NCBI GenBank assembly: GCA_013140455.1
Contig: JABFSU010000072.1
Location: 1-34,434, forward strand
DNA from: Nitrospira sp.
Lineage (GTDB): Bacteria; Nitrospirota; Nitrospiria; Nitrospirales; Nitrospiraceae
Direction of reading: 5' to 3'
Length of the DNA stretch: 34,434 nt
This document shows, in pieces, positions 1,475 through 6,556 of the stretch. The notes beneath the pieces were generated by a model. It searched no databases. It was not told the origin of the DNA and saw only the letters and a program-made list of their open reading frames with translations. The stretch's first letter is position 1, and the number at the start of each line of letters is the position of its first letter. A program made the translations under genes and the position numbers.

Positions 1475-2356
1475 CTATAGCGCCCCGTTCGATGAACGGG
1501 TAAAGCGATCGGCGAGGAGGATGCCCGTGGTTTTCAGCTTCTGCTCACTGATGGTGGAGCGGACGGTCGAGAGCCGGTTGGAAAAATCAGGATGTGTTTT
1601 GAAGAAGGCCCGGTCGTCGCCTTTGAGGGTCCGTAGCCGGTCCAGGAATGTCTCGTAGGCGGTCGGATCGTAACCCACGCGCGACGCGAAGATGACTCCT
1701 ACGCGGTCGGACTCCAGTTCCTTGCCCTGGTCCAGTCCCTCGTCCAACAGTTTTTTGACCGCTCCGTCGATCACGTTCTTGAACGCGTCGGGATTCTTAT
1801 TGGCGTAGGCCAGACCGGCTTCCGCCACGCCGGCGATCTGCTTGGAGCGTTGAATGACGTCGAGGATATGTTTCTGGGTGACGTGACCGATCTCATGGCC
1901 CAATACCGCCGCGAGCTCGGCTTCGTTCTTGATCGTTTTCAACAACCCGCGGGTGACGAAGATGTAGCCGGCCGGCGCGGCGAAGGCGTTGATCGAGTCG
2001 TGGTTGAGGATTGCAAAGCGATACTCGATGTCGGCGCGATCACAGGTCAAGGCCACGCTACGGCCGACCAGGTTCACATATCGGGTCAAGTCCGGCTGAT
2101 CGTAGACCCCGCCATAGCGGGCCACCACCTGTAAGGCGATCGCTTGTCCGATGGTTTGTTCTTCTTCGTATCCGATGGGTAGCAGCCCGCCGATGAGCGT
2201 TCCGCCGCCATGGATCGTCTTCGCCAGCCGTTCGTTTCCCGAGCTTCGAGCGGCGCCTTCGGCAGCCTTCTGGATTTCCGCACAGCCGGTCAGCCCGGCG
2301 GTCGCGAGCAGCACCAGGCCGACGACGAAAAGTCCGCGTGATGACCTATTCAGCAT
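1475..2356 (-). CDS. M48-family metalloprotease lipoprotein (BepA/LoiP-like)
   Basis: The protein has 293 residues. Residues 1-25 form a lipoprotein signal with a lipobox-like LTGC ending at Cys25, so it is probably tethered in the envelope. The zinc-protease motif HEIGH is at 154-158, inside LAAVLGHEIGHVTQKH. The third ligand region ELESDRVG follows, with Glu213 as the expected zinc ligand and Asp217 in the usual ExExD position. NAFAAPAGYIFVTRGLL at about 123-139 is typical of M48 enzymes. Known relatives degrade or help assemble misfolded outer-membrane proteins. It is the last gene of a four-gene minus-strand operon, and its start overlaps the end of the SH3b gene by 11 bp, which suggests translational coupling. 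There is no clear U-tract terminator after the stop. Family assignment is firm; the substrate is unknown. Confidence 0.93.
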   Translation of the reverse strand: MLNRSSRGLFVVGLVLLATAGLTGCAEIQKAAEGAARSSGNERLAKTIHGGGTLIGGLLPIGYEEEQTIGQAIALQVVARYGGVYDQPDLTRYVNLVGRSVALTCDRADIEYRFAILNHDSINAFAAPAGYIFVTRGLLKTIKNEAELAAVLGHEIGHVTQKHILDVIQRSKQIAGVAEAGLAYANKNPDAFKNVIDGAVKKLLDEGLDQGKELESDRVGVIFASRVGYDPTAYETFLDRLRTLKGDDRAFFKTHPDFSNRLSTVRSTISEQKLKTTGILLADRFTRSSNGAL

Positions 2357-2849
2357 ATTCGCCGAGCCTCCCGGCTTTGAGGAATGTCTGGATATCTTCG
2401 TCAGGAATCTTGTTGGCGGTCATCCGATCTACGGCATCGCGATGCTGCTGGGTAATTCCGACCCGATTGGCATAACTTTCCGACGCTTTATCAAGCCCGC
2501 GGGCGCCGGCCGAGGCGGTGACACCCGAGGCCTCGGTTCGTCTGAATCCCTTCCCCAGGGCAGCCAGCTCGTTGTCCCCTCCCGCCGGTTTCGACTCGGA
2601 CACATTGCCGGAGTAGATCCAGCCTGTGACACCCTTGGCGGTCTTGACCTGCACCCAGCGGTCATCTCGCTTCACCACCTCCAAGGTTTCTCCTATTTTC
2701 AGGCTAGCCACGACGGGGTCCAGCGAGGTTTTTCCCGAACGTAATTGCGCGCTCTTGGCTGAGACATAGAGGGTCTCGCCGAAGGCGGCATCAGTCATGG
2801 CAGTTACCATGAAGACCAGGATGGCAAGGAAGGCATGACGGTGATTCAC
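2346..2849 (-). CDS. Exported SH3b-domain protein
   Basis: The protein has 167 residues and starts with GTG at 2849; GAGG lies five bases before it. Residues 1-24 look like a signal peptide ending near AAFG|ET. A bacterial SH3 (SH3b) domain covers about 27-85, with the usual YVSAKSAQLRSG start, a GETLEVV strand, RWVQVKT and the closing GWIYSGNVSE. The C-terminal part (86-167) is charged and probably helical, with no recognised domain. SH3b domains in the periplasm often bind cell-wall peptides. The gene lies 11 bp after the adenylate cyclase gene and overlaps the M48 protease gene by 11 bp, so the four genes are very likely co-transcribed. A role in bringing a neighbour to the cell wall is inference. 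Confidence 0.88.
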   Translation of the reverse strand: MNHRHAFLAILVFMVTAMTDAAFGETLYVSAKSAQLRSGKTSLDPVVASLKIGETLEVVKRDDRWVQVKTAKGVTGWIYSGNVSESKPAGGDNELAALGKGFRRTEASGVTASAGARGLDKASESYANRVGITQQHRDAVDRMTANKIPDEDIQTFLKAGRLGEYAE

Positions 2850-2860
2850 GGGAGCCTCGC

Positions 2861-5032
2861 TTACTTCGATGTGAGTTCATACACGCCATCCCACTCTTCG
2901 GGAGGCGGAGCTATAAGGTACTCTTCGGCTCTTTCCAAGTAAACCCGTGCCGGGCCGTCCTTCGGGTCGAGCGCCAGCGCGGCCTCAAATTGCGCGGCCG
3001 CTGTTTTGAAATCGCGTTGCTTGTAGGCCTCGAGCCCGATTCGATAGGTCTCGATGACACGGCGTCGTTCATCAGGCAGGCCTCCCTTGCGGGCGAGCAA
3101 TTCGAAGACCACTACGGGCTCCTGTTTGCCTTTGACCCGCATGCGGTCGACCTCCCGCGCTTCGATGTCTCCGGCGGCGAGTTCGTAGGTGCGGGGACCC
3201 AACAGGATCAGCGTATCGTAAAACTTATTCGCGCCCTCCAGGCGAGAGGCCAGATTCACGGCATCGCCCATCACCGTATATTCCATCCTCGCCTGCGATC
3301 CCATATTGCCGACCACGAGCCAGCCGGAATTGATCCCGATGCGCGCGCTGATCTCCGGCTGTCCCTCGGTTTTCCACCGTTCGCGCAGCGTGGCAAGCTC
3401 AGCCTGTGAGTCTAACGCGGCAAAGCAGGCAAGGCTGGCGTGATTGGGCTCTCCGCGCGGCGCCCCGAAGATCGCCATGATGCCGTCCCCCAGGTACTTA
3501 TTCACGTTGCCCCGGTGGCGGAGAATGATCTCTGTCATGGCCGAGAGATACTGGTTCAGGAGTTCGACGAGCCTTTCCGGATCCATCTGTTCCGAGATGG
3601 ACGTAAATCCGGCGATGTCAGAAAAGATCACCGACAGTTCTTTTTTCTCGCCTCCGAGCCGGATCGCTTCCGGATTCCGCATGATCTCATCGACCACCTC
3701 GGCCGCCATGTATTTGTCGAAGACTGTCCGCAGTTGCCGGCGCTGTCGCCCTTCCGTGAGGTACTCGACGGTCGCGGCGGTGGCAAATGAGACCGCCAGC
3801 GCGCCTTCGGGAATGGCGAGATCGAGCCAGAGCCCGTGCGATGTAAAGGCGTGGACGGCGAGTCCGTAGTAGGCAGCGGCCAGGCCGGCGATGGCGGCCG
3901 CCTTGACCCACTGGGACTGCATCAACATGAAGGCCCATGCGGTGGCGAGCGTCAGGACGAGTGTGGCGGCTGCGAAGAGGCCCCACGACGCCGGCTGGAG
4001 ATGGCGCTGTCGCAGCATGTTATCGAGTGCCGACATATGGATGAGGACGCCGGGTGCAAAGGGAGAAAGTGGTGTGACTCGCAGATCGTACGTCCCGGCG
4101 GCGGTGGTGGCCACGAATACGATTTTGTCTTTGAACAGCGCCGGGTCCAGCAGGGGAGGCTGGCCTCCCTGCATGTCGGTATAGGAGCGGAGGACGGCTC
4201 CGATGGGATAGACGGGGTAGACGCGATTCTCCAGCGATCCGTGCCAGTCGATGACCATGTCCTGCTCGGCGGTCAAGGGAATCGTCACCGGTCCAAGCCG
4301 AAGTTCCCGATGATGCAGCGATGCGCGGTCCGCTTGCAGAAGGTCGCGCGCGACGGTCGTGCTGATGTGCAGGAACGTCTGATCTTTCGCGTGCGCCAGT
4401 GGGGGGAGGCGGCGGGTGGTTCCGTCGATGTCCGGGGTCAGATTGATATATCCGAGACCGTGAGCGGCCTGCGCGAACAGCGGCAGGGGCAATTTGGCGC
4501 CGGTATAGGTCGAGACTGTTCCGGTCGGCGGAGGAGTCTGATCGTCGAGTGCGATCGTCGCTTTCTTCACGATGTCAGGCGGGTATTCTTGCGTGCTGGA
4601 AGCGGACGAGTTGCCGTCGGGCATCCGCTCGTCCTGCATCAGAAACGGCAGATAGACGTTCCCGGCCGCTCGCATCTCTTCGGCGAACACGGCATCAAAC
4701 TCCTCCCCCGACCGATCCGGTTCGAGAAACAGGAGATCGAAGACCACGGCTTTAGCGCCGGCCTCTTTCAGGTAGTGGACGACATACCCGTGCCGGTCGC
4801 GGGACCAGGGCCACTGGCCGTAGGATTCCAGGCTGGCCTCATCCACGGCAACCAGTACGATGTCGTTCCCGGCCTTGGTGGAATCTGCGTACCGATGGAA
4901 CCGATGGTCGAGTGTCTTGAGTTCTGTGACGGTGAGCCATCCCGACCAGTGCAGGGCCAAGGCGAGGAGCCATACCGCTCCCCCGACCAGCGTTCCAGAG
5001 ATTACCTTGTTGTATCGCGTGGCAGCTTGCAT
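2861..5032 (-). CDS. CHASE2-domain class III adenylate cyclase with TPR tail
   Basis: The protein has 723 residues. An N-terminal membrane helix (about 9-32) is followed by an extracytoplasmic CHASE2 sensor domain (about 35-335). Three membrane helices follow (about 345-430), then a class III cyclase domain (about 463-647) and a C-terminal TPR-like pair (about 660-710, AYKQRDFKTAAAQFEAALAL). Metal-binding Asp472 (FSDIAGF) and Asp516 (KYLGDG) are present. Lys512 and Thr586 sit at the base-selecting positions; the K/T pair is found in known bacterial adenylate cyclases, which favours ATP over GTP. Asn593 and Arg597 (NLASR) stabilise the transition state. All catalytic positions are intact, so a homodimer should make cAMP in response to an envelope signal. 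GGAG lies about seven bases before the ATG. It sits 39 bp after the cyclic-nucleotide-binding channel gene, so its product probably has a local target. The CHASE2 ligand cannot be read from sequence. Confidence 0.93.
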   Translation of the reverse strand: MQAATRYNKVISGTLVGGAVWLLALALHWSGWLTVTELKTLDHRFHRYADSTKAGNDIVLVAVDEASLESYGQWPWSRDRHGYVVHYLKEAGAKAVVFDLLFLEPDRSGEEFDAVFAEEMRAAGNVYLPFLMQDERMPDGNSSASSTQEYPPDIVKKATIALDDQTPPPTGTVSTYTGAKLPLPLFAQAAHGLGYINLTPDIDGTTRRLPPLAHAKDQTFLHISTTVARDLLQADRASLHHRELRLGPVTIPLTAEQDMVIDWHGSLENRVYPVYPIGAVLRSYTDMQGGQPPLLDPALFKDKIVFVATTAAGTYDLRVTPLSPFAPGVLIHMSALDNMLRQRHLQPASWGLFAAATLVLTLATAWAFMLMQSQWVKAAAIAGLAAAYYGLAVHAFTSHGLWLDLAIPEGALAVSFATAATVEYLTEGRQRRQLRTVFDKYMAAEVVDEIMRNPEAIRLGGEKKELSVIFSDIAGFTSISEQMDPERLVELLNQYLSAMTEIILRHRGNVNKYLGDGIMAIFGAPRGEPNHASLACFAALDSQAELATLRERWKTEGQPEISARIGINSGWLVVGNMGSQARMEYTVMGDAVNLASRLEGANKFYDTLILLGPRTYELAAGDIEAREVDRMRVKGKQEPVVVFELLARKGGLPDERRRVIETYRIGLEAYKQRDFKTAAAQFEAALALDPKDGPARVYLERAEEYLIAPPPEEWDGVYELTSK

Positions 5033-5071
5033 CTCACGGCTCCACCGTCGATGACAGGAAGCGGTCGGGGA

Positions 5072-6556
5072 TTAGTTCCCGGACCGGCGGAAGAATTGGA
5101 GGATCTTCGCGGTGAGCGACTGTCCATCCTCTGCGACGGACCTCAGTTTTGACGCGCGATCGGCGGTTTCGCGCGTGGCCGCCAGCGCCGATTGCCGGGT
5201 CGTGAGGATTGTGCCGAATTGTTCGGCCAGGCCGGGGGTACGGGAGATGATCCGGCTCATGGCGTGCTTGCCGATGACCGTGACGGTCAGTTGGGATTTC
5301 GCTTGGACCGTGGCGGAGCGTGGGGCTCCGGTGAGCAGGGACATTTCGCCGAAGAACTGCCCTTGCTTGAGCGCGGCGACCGGCGTGCTCTGGTCACCCG
5401 TTTTGATCACGACGTCGGCGTCGCCCGCCATGACTACGAAGAGCTCCTCTCCCGGTTCGCCTTCCCGCACGACCTGCTCGCCGGGCAGGTAGACGCGTTT
5501 CTGCGCGTGCTCGGCCAGCGAGTGCAGCGCCTCTGCGTCGAGTATCGCTAAGAAATCGATGGCACGAAACTGCTCCTCAATGCTGGCCAGTTCGATGGCC
5601 CGCAACGCCGTCAGGTCAGGGGCCTGAGTCATGTGTACGACACGTTGAGGATAGGGGATCTCAATGCCATTGCGCTGGAAGGCATACCAGACATAGGCCA
5701 TCACCTCGCCCTCAAGGCGTTCACGGCCTCCGTAATCATGGAAAAAGAATTTGAGCTTGTAAGAGATACCCGATTCCTTAAACTCCTCAACGAAGCTGAT
5801 CGGCGCTGGAACGGCGACGACGCCGGGAACCGCCAAAGCAGATTGCATGAGGATTTCTTTCACCTGCATCGGGGGATGAGCATAGTTCGCTTCAACGTGG
5901 ATGGCTCGGGCGCACAGGCTTTCCGGCCGGCTATGGTTGGTGATGGCGGATTGAGAGACGGCATCATTGGGAAGCATGATGTAATCGTAGGCGCGCGTTC
6001 TGATCGTGATGTAATCAAAGGCGATGTCGGTGACGACACCCTCTTTGTCCATCAACGTGACCCAGTCGCCGACGTGGATCATGCGGCCGAGTTGGATGCC
6101 CGAGGCCAGGCGCGCGATGACGTCTTTGAGCGCGAACCCCACCACAGCGGTGGCGATGGTCGGGAGCGCGATCAAGGTCAGCGGATCCATTTCGAGAACC
6201 GCCCGAAGCAGGACGAGGCCCGCCAGGGTGACCCCGACGAGCAGGAAGATCAGGCGGAGCATCCGGGGGATGTATTTCCCCCGCTTCTCGACGAGGTAGT
6301 CTTCGATGAACAGCAGGTCCAGAGTTTTCAGGATGACGAAGCAGGTCGCCAGGTATGCAATGAAGGCCAGCCAGGGCTGCGCCCACTGGGGCACATGTGA
6401 GATCAACCCTTGTGTGGTGAGTTCCAGCAGGAGCACGAGCAGGATCGTGGAGAGGCATCCCGCGTAGAATTCAACTCCGGCAGGTTTTTTACGGACGGCG
6501 CCGAGGTATGCAAGTAGTCCGATGGTGATCAGACCGAGAATCGAAGCTACGCCCAT
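5072..6556 (-). CDS. MscS-superfamily channel with C-terminal cyclic-nucleotide-binding domain (bCNG-like)
   Basis: The protein has 494 residues. Several membrane helices (about 1-145) end in a pore-lining segment with TAVVGFALKDVIARLASG, the MscS helix signature. The MscS beta domain follows (HVGDWVTLMDKEGVVTDI, about 160-180) and then the alpha/beta part. A cyclic-nucleotide-binding domain covers about 325-440. Its phosphate-binding cassette GEMSLLTGAPRSATV has the key Glu404 and Arg413. This order matches the bacterial cyclic-nucleotide-gated branch of the MscS family, where the nucleotide opens or modulates the channel and mechanical gating is weak. Being first in an operon with an adenylate cyclase, it is a likely target of cAMP. 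No strong ribosome binding site precedes the ATG at 6556. Domain assignment is firm; gating by cAMP is inference. Confidence 0.93.
   Translation of the reverse strand: MGVASILGLITIGLLAYLGAVRKKPAGVEFYAGCLSTILLVLLLELTTQGLISHVPQWAQPWLAFIAYLATCFVILKTLDLLFIEDYLVEKRGKYIPRMLRLIFLLVGVTLAGLVLLRAVLEMDPLTLIALPTIATAVVGFALKDVIARLASGIQLGRMIHVGDWVTLMDKEGVVTDIAFDYITIRTRAYDYIMLPNDAVSQSAITNHSRPESLCARAIHVEANYAHPPMQVKEILMQSALAVPGVVAVPAPISFVEEFKESGISYKLKFFFHDYGGRERLEGEVMAYVWYAFQRNGIEIPYPQRVVHMTQAPDLTALRAIELASIEEQFRAIDFLAILDAEALHSLAEHAQKRVYLPGEQVVREGEPGEELFVVMAGDADVVIKTGDQSTPVAALKQGQFFGEMSLLTGAPRSATVQAKSQLTVTVIGKHAMSRIISRTPGLAEQFGTILTTRQSALAATRETADRASKLRSVAEDGQSLTAKILQFFRRSGN

Follow-up and report, generated by a model that had tools for sequence, protein, structure and literature searches.

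A conserved CHASE2 cyclase, SH3b and M48 gene trio, adjoined in one branch of Nitrospira-type bacteria by a gene for a bCNG-type channel

Channels of the bCNG type belong to the MscS superfamily and were reportedly described by Caldwell et al. in 2010 and by Malcolm et al. in 2012. They combine an MscS pore and beta domain with a C-terminal cyclic-nucleotide-binding domain (CNBD) carrying a Glu/Arg cassette; this channel type is itself already described, and the channel encoded at the locus analyzed here has the same build. What sets the locus apart from the described bCNG channels is that the channel gene shares an operon-like unit with the gene for a receptor cyclase, which in some carriers is the only class III cyclase of the genome. 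CHASE2 receptors joined to a class III cyclase are likewise known from Sinorhizobium meliloti, in which CyaD1, CyaD2 and CyaK receive their signal through the outer-membrane protein NsrA and have the transcription factor Clr as their output (PMC13001267). At the locus studied here, in contrast, it is a channel that is linked to the cyclase as its candidate receptor, and an SH3b and an M48 protein take the place of NsrA as envelope partners (PMC13001267). In the mtxA cluster of magnetotactic bacteria, a CHASE2 cyclase gene follows a gene of unknown role, and the accessible part of that report mentions no channel or M48 partner, unlike the locus studied here (PMC4439547). In the literature consulted, neither a bCNG channel tied to a specific cyclase nor the whole combination was found. 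The domains are known and the arrangement is new: a conserved three-part sensor, joined in one branch by a channel.

The window (i.e. the whole stretch of DNA analyzed) is a single contig of 34,434 bases from a 3.79-Mb draft assembly of a Nitrospira-type member of the Nitrospiraceae. The four genes and their parts, with positions in the window, are as follows:

5072..6556, minus strand: MscS-superfamily channel with a C-terminal CNBD (bCNG type) and about five predicted transmembrane helices, 494 aa
5240..5497, minus strand: CNBD of the channel (Pfam cNMP_binding, residues 354-439)
5309..5353, minus strand: phosphate-binding cassette of the CNBD, FGEMSLLTGAPRSAT, with Glu404 and Arg413 conserved in 39/39 aligned channels
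5033..5071, minus strand: channel-cyclase spacer of 39 bp (39-40 bp in other genomes with the same arrangement)
2861..5032, minus strand: CHASE2 receptor-type class III nucleotidyl cyclase with a short C-terminal tail, 723 aa
3941..4972, minus strand: CHASE2 periplasmic sensor region of the cyclase
3113..3646, minus strand: class III catalytic domain with D472 and D516 (metal), K512/T586 (adenine selection), N593 and R597
2346..2849, minus strand: exported SH3b protein with a conserved C-terminal helical region, 167 aa
1475..2356, minus strand: M48 zinc metalloprotease lipoprotein, BepA-like sequence, 293 aa
1883..1897, minus strand: HEIGH zinc-binding motif of the M48 protease (HEIGH at residue 154)

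The positions of the four genes, the gaps of 39 bp (channel-cyclase) and 11 bp (cyclase-SH3b) and the 11-bp overlap of the SH3b and M48 genes are exactly those of the initial annotation, and no terminator-like site was found at any of the junctions. Pairwise dN/dS values (approximately 0.04-0.33 across the four genes) indicate purifying selection on each of the ORFs, which are therefore real genes. Elsewhere in the window (positions 1-460), a long direct repeat of about 290 bp was spotted by eye inside the first ORF.

The cyclase had been annotated as a CHASE2 enzyme with all catalytic residues, and this was confirmed: Pfam searches recognized CHASE2 (PF05226; E-value 7.5e-53, 180.1 bits) and Guanylate_cyc (PF00211; 3.6e-25, 89.1 bits), while the metal-binding Asp pair (D472 and D516), the Lys/Thr pair (K512 and T586) and the transition-state Asn/Arg pair (N593 and R597) are all present, with the motifs holding in 36/36 aligned cyclases. 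In class III cyclases such a Lys/Thr pair predicts ATP as the substrate, and it is from this pair only that cAMP is predicted as the product. The suggestion that a TPR tail of the cyclase could hold the complex together has a weak basis, as the tail gave a single TPR_2 match of 19.8 bits, under the cut-off of 27.

In the channel, the MscS beta and C-terminal domains and the C-terminal CNBD all scored above their cut-offs within one chain (PF00924, PF21082 and PF00027; cNMP_binding 1.4e-18, MS_channel_2nd 5e-11), and in a structure comparison the predicted model matched MscS structures and cyclic-nucleotide-binding domains alike. Together with the presence of E404 and R413, this agrees with the annotated MscS channel bearing an intact cyclic-nucleotide cassette. 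The cassette is followed by the residues RSA, a feature that resembles cAMP-binding domains, and the channel is predicted from its sequence to be gated by a cyclic nucleotide. Close relatives of this channel occur in Nitrospira MAGs.

The exported SH3b protein and the M48 lipoprotein protease were likewise recovered, with matches to SH3_3 (8e-10) and Peptidase_M48 (6.3e-28), a lipobox (LTGC, residues 22-25) and the HEIGH motif of the protease. The M48 protein was not assigned to BepA, since it reaches 111.4 bits against the NCBIfam equivalog, for which the cut-off is 570, and Pfam gave no TPR match within its 293 aa. Foldseek matches of the SH3b model were confined to the SH3 part, with none for the C-terminal helices. 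SH3b-M48 pairs were also seen in other surroundings: immediately after CHAT-domain proteins, a second partner (loci L082, 8548-17999; L084, 2-7999; L083, 2-2651), which in L082 and L084 are giant CHAT-TPR proteins, and in a Nitrospina MAG (L106, 2211-3550), in a locus with no cyclase match.

Apart from the cyclase of the window, the survey took in 31 close orthologs with 57-93% identity, drawn from eight genera of two families, and in 31/31 the SH3b and M48 genes directly follow the cyclase gene, an order retained even at 57-60% identity, across genera and families. As both genes accompany all of these orthologs, the conserved core consists of the sensor trio. Around more distant cyclases (29-36% identity), neither SH3b nor M48 was matched. 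In one genome, G225, the SH3b-M48 pair after the cyclase was detected by tblastn. Upstream of the cyclase, G178 and most genomes of the genus g12 carry a trypsin-FGE fusion gene; in locus L182 (6518-8907) a Tll0287-like protein and then a trypsin-FGE-sulfatase fusion precede the cyclase.

The expectation that relatives would keep the gene order thus held throughout for cyclase, SH3b and M48, but not for the channel, which outside one branch lies elsewhere and so does not belong to the core. Only nine genomes have it ahead of the cyclase, from three genera of that branch (G000, G312, G032, G029, G309, G321 and G022 of the window genus, and G393 and G375 of two other genera), with a spacing of 39-40 bp and in at least two different flanking contexts; in G393 the flanks are unlike those of the window genus and the block is intact. 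An apparent truncation of the channel in G032 proved to be an assembly gap (a run of N) and no real deletion. In the other carriers of the family that were inspected (G178 and 19 g12 genomes), the channel gene lies directly downstream of a RelA/SpoT homolog, as it also does in two genomes of a sister family, G035 and G047. In G049 and G051 it is beside neither cyclase nor RelA/SpoT. The view of the four genes as one ancestral unit is not supported, given that outside one branch the channel is mostly found behind RelA/SpoT. In locus L187 (9114-14566), a bCNG-type channel comes just after RelA/SpoT, and RecJ adjoins the RelA/SpoT gene. The channel tree places the two groups of the family as sisters, moderately supported (91/76), and the sister family falls outside. 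This could simply mean that one branch saw the channel move into the cyclase operon; given that identity between the two channel types is only about 41%, as against about 60% for the cyclases of the same groups, the channel may instead have been acquired separately.

Co-occurrence was assessed in 120 near-complete (at least 90% complete) genomes of the family, of which 33 carry both channel and cyclase, one the channel only, one the cyclase only and 85 neither (34 genomes with the channel and 34 with the cyclase). Each of the two is present in 7/18 genera, and these are the same genera; Fisher values treat genomes and genera as independent, which they are not, and are used for description only. 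Because genomes within one genus are non-independent, separate co-gains or co-losses may have been few. Where the channel follows RelA/SpoT, it is not linked to the cyclase, and therefore linkage cannot explain their co-occurrence there. The channel-cyclase pairing put forward at the outset has gained in weight, as the genes are neighbours in nine genomes of three genera and co-occur even where unlinked, so that the genomic data support the proposed coupling of cyclase and channel. The carriers G022 (one contig) and G149 each encode exactly one class III cyclase, the window genome two; no class I cyclase was found in the seven genomes tested. In the genomes tested, carriers have at least three further CNBD proteins, which are candidate cAMP receivers.

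There are two discordant genomes: G225, with cyclase-SH3b-M48 and no channel match, and G025, with the channel only. In the latter, a deletion fuses a frameshifted stub of the cyclase to the AsmA region, and the remainder of the cyclase has gone together with SH3b and M48, leaving an intact channel and no class III cyclase. On the G025 branch, dN/dS was mostly 0.20-0.26 for the stub, 0.21-0.23 for the channel and, close to the channel value, 0.16-0.22 for the AsmA control. The loss of the cyclase looks recent, for which reason G025 is only weak evidence against coupling and was dismissed as proof of a cAMP-independent channel.

A single contig scan, reaching close relatives only, found no four-gene unit outside Nitrospira-type genomes. 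A related channel was inspected at eleven plasmid loci of proteobacteria, and a class III cyclase is adjacent in one (1/11), from Sinorhizobium sp. B11; on this plasmid (L200, 2953-6089) a channel of the same type is divergent from the cyclase. In Azospirillum, a related channel adjoins genes for the osmoprotectant NAGGN, which agrees with such channels having an osmotic role. Gammaproteobacterial loci contain CHASE2 cyclases paired with a different CNBD protein, a flavin oxidoreductase bearing two CNBDs, and this supports the general notion that a CHASE2 cyclase and its cyclic-nucleotide receptor can travel together. One cluster (L110, 2494-12803; also L115, L120 and L123; domains scanned in L110) consists of a CHASE2 cyclase followed by a TPR/SlipAM protein, a FecR protein, an NAD(P) oxidoreductase that carries 4Fe-4S and two CNBDs, and an FHA multihaem cytochrome. 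It looks like a cyclic-nucleotide-controlled electron-transfer cluster.

On balance, we lean towards a periplasmic sensing complex of CHASE2, SH3b and M48 that would control cAMP, with cAMP in turn gating the channel. The CHASE2 ectodomain, the periplasmic SH3b protein and the M48 lipoprotein, lying in one compartment, would sense the state of the envelope or periplasm, presumably the source of the signal, and would control the class III cyclase and through it cAMP, whose binding to the CNBD of the MscS-type channel would alter gating and let ions or osmolytes pass. The SH3b and M48 proteins are placed, conditionally, on the input side because of the shared compartment, their constant adjacency and the precedent of NsrA (PMC13001267).

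It is also conceivable, though rather unlikely, that the real unit is the cyclase-SH3b-M48 trio and that cAMP acts mainly on Crp-family regulators, the CNBD of the neighbouring mechanosensitive channel being a modest modulator or unrelated. This would fit the adjacency of the trio in 31/31 orthologs while the channel lies elsewhere in most carriers, the other CNBD proteins in every genome tested, and the retention of the channel by G025, which has no class III cyclase. However, G025 itself carries other CNBD proteins, so these need not be cAMP receptors, and this view fits poorly with the near-perfect co-occurrence of channel and cyclase where they are unlinked, with one branch having the channel beside the cyclase and with the invariant ligand residues of its CNBD. 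We regard it as improbable that unrelated envelope genes came together on one strand by chance: short gaps are common between same-strand bacterial genes and the channel is not retained there outside one branch, but the order of the trio is held at 57-60% identity across genera and families, and the 39-40 bp spacing in nine genomes and the co-occurrence also speak against mere neighbourhood.

Most improbable of all is a Pycsar-like anti-phage system, in which infection would raise a cyclic nucleotide and a membrane channel would act as the toxic effector. Pycsar likewise pairs a cyclase with a cyclic-nucleotide receptor (PMC11224242), its cyclase/CNBD-effector logic is identical, and PADLOC matched the cyclase domain to PycC profiles (best E-value 1e-26) and the channel CNBD to effector CNBDs (2.4e-13). 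These hits, however, are limited to the shared cyclase and CNBD domains, and the locus was not assigned to Pycsar (PycC with a PycTM or PycTIR effector). As far as the consulted part of the source describes them, Pycsar systems are without a CHASE2 receptor or periplasmic partners, and their effector types differ from the channel found here (PMC11224242); the CHASE2 membrane receptor, the constant periplasmic partners and a pair unlinked in most carriers are unlike a defence cassette.

A direct sensor-to-channel pathway, with the trio always together and the channel added in one branch, is plausible. A more specific form of it can be offered as possible rather than probable, namely a dedicated receptor-cyclase-to-channel pathway in which, in one branch, a cAMP-gated channel was added to the operon of the CHASE2 cyclase that serves it, the conserved periplasmic SH3b-M48 pair sets cyclase activity and an envelope signal leads directly to ion flux. 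That SH3b and M48 are constant partners suggests that this CHASE2 cyclase has a conserved input device, and the channel behind RelA/SpoT hints at a possible link with the stringent response. A natural test pair is offered by genomes in which a single class III cyclase stands against a single channel of this type. If the direct pathway is real, these bacteria would convert an envelope signal to ion flux without transcription.
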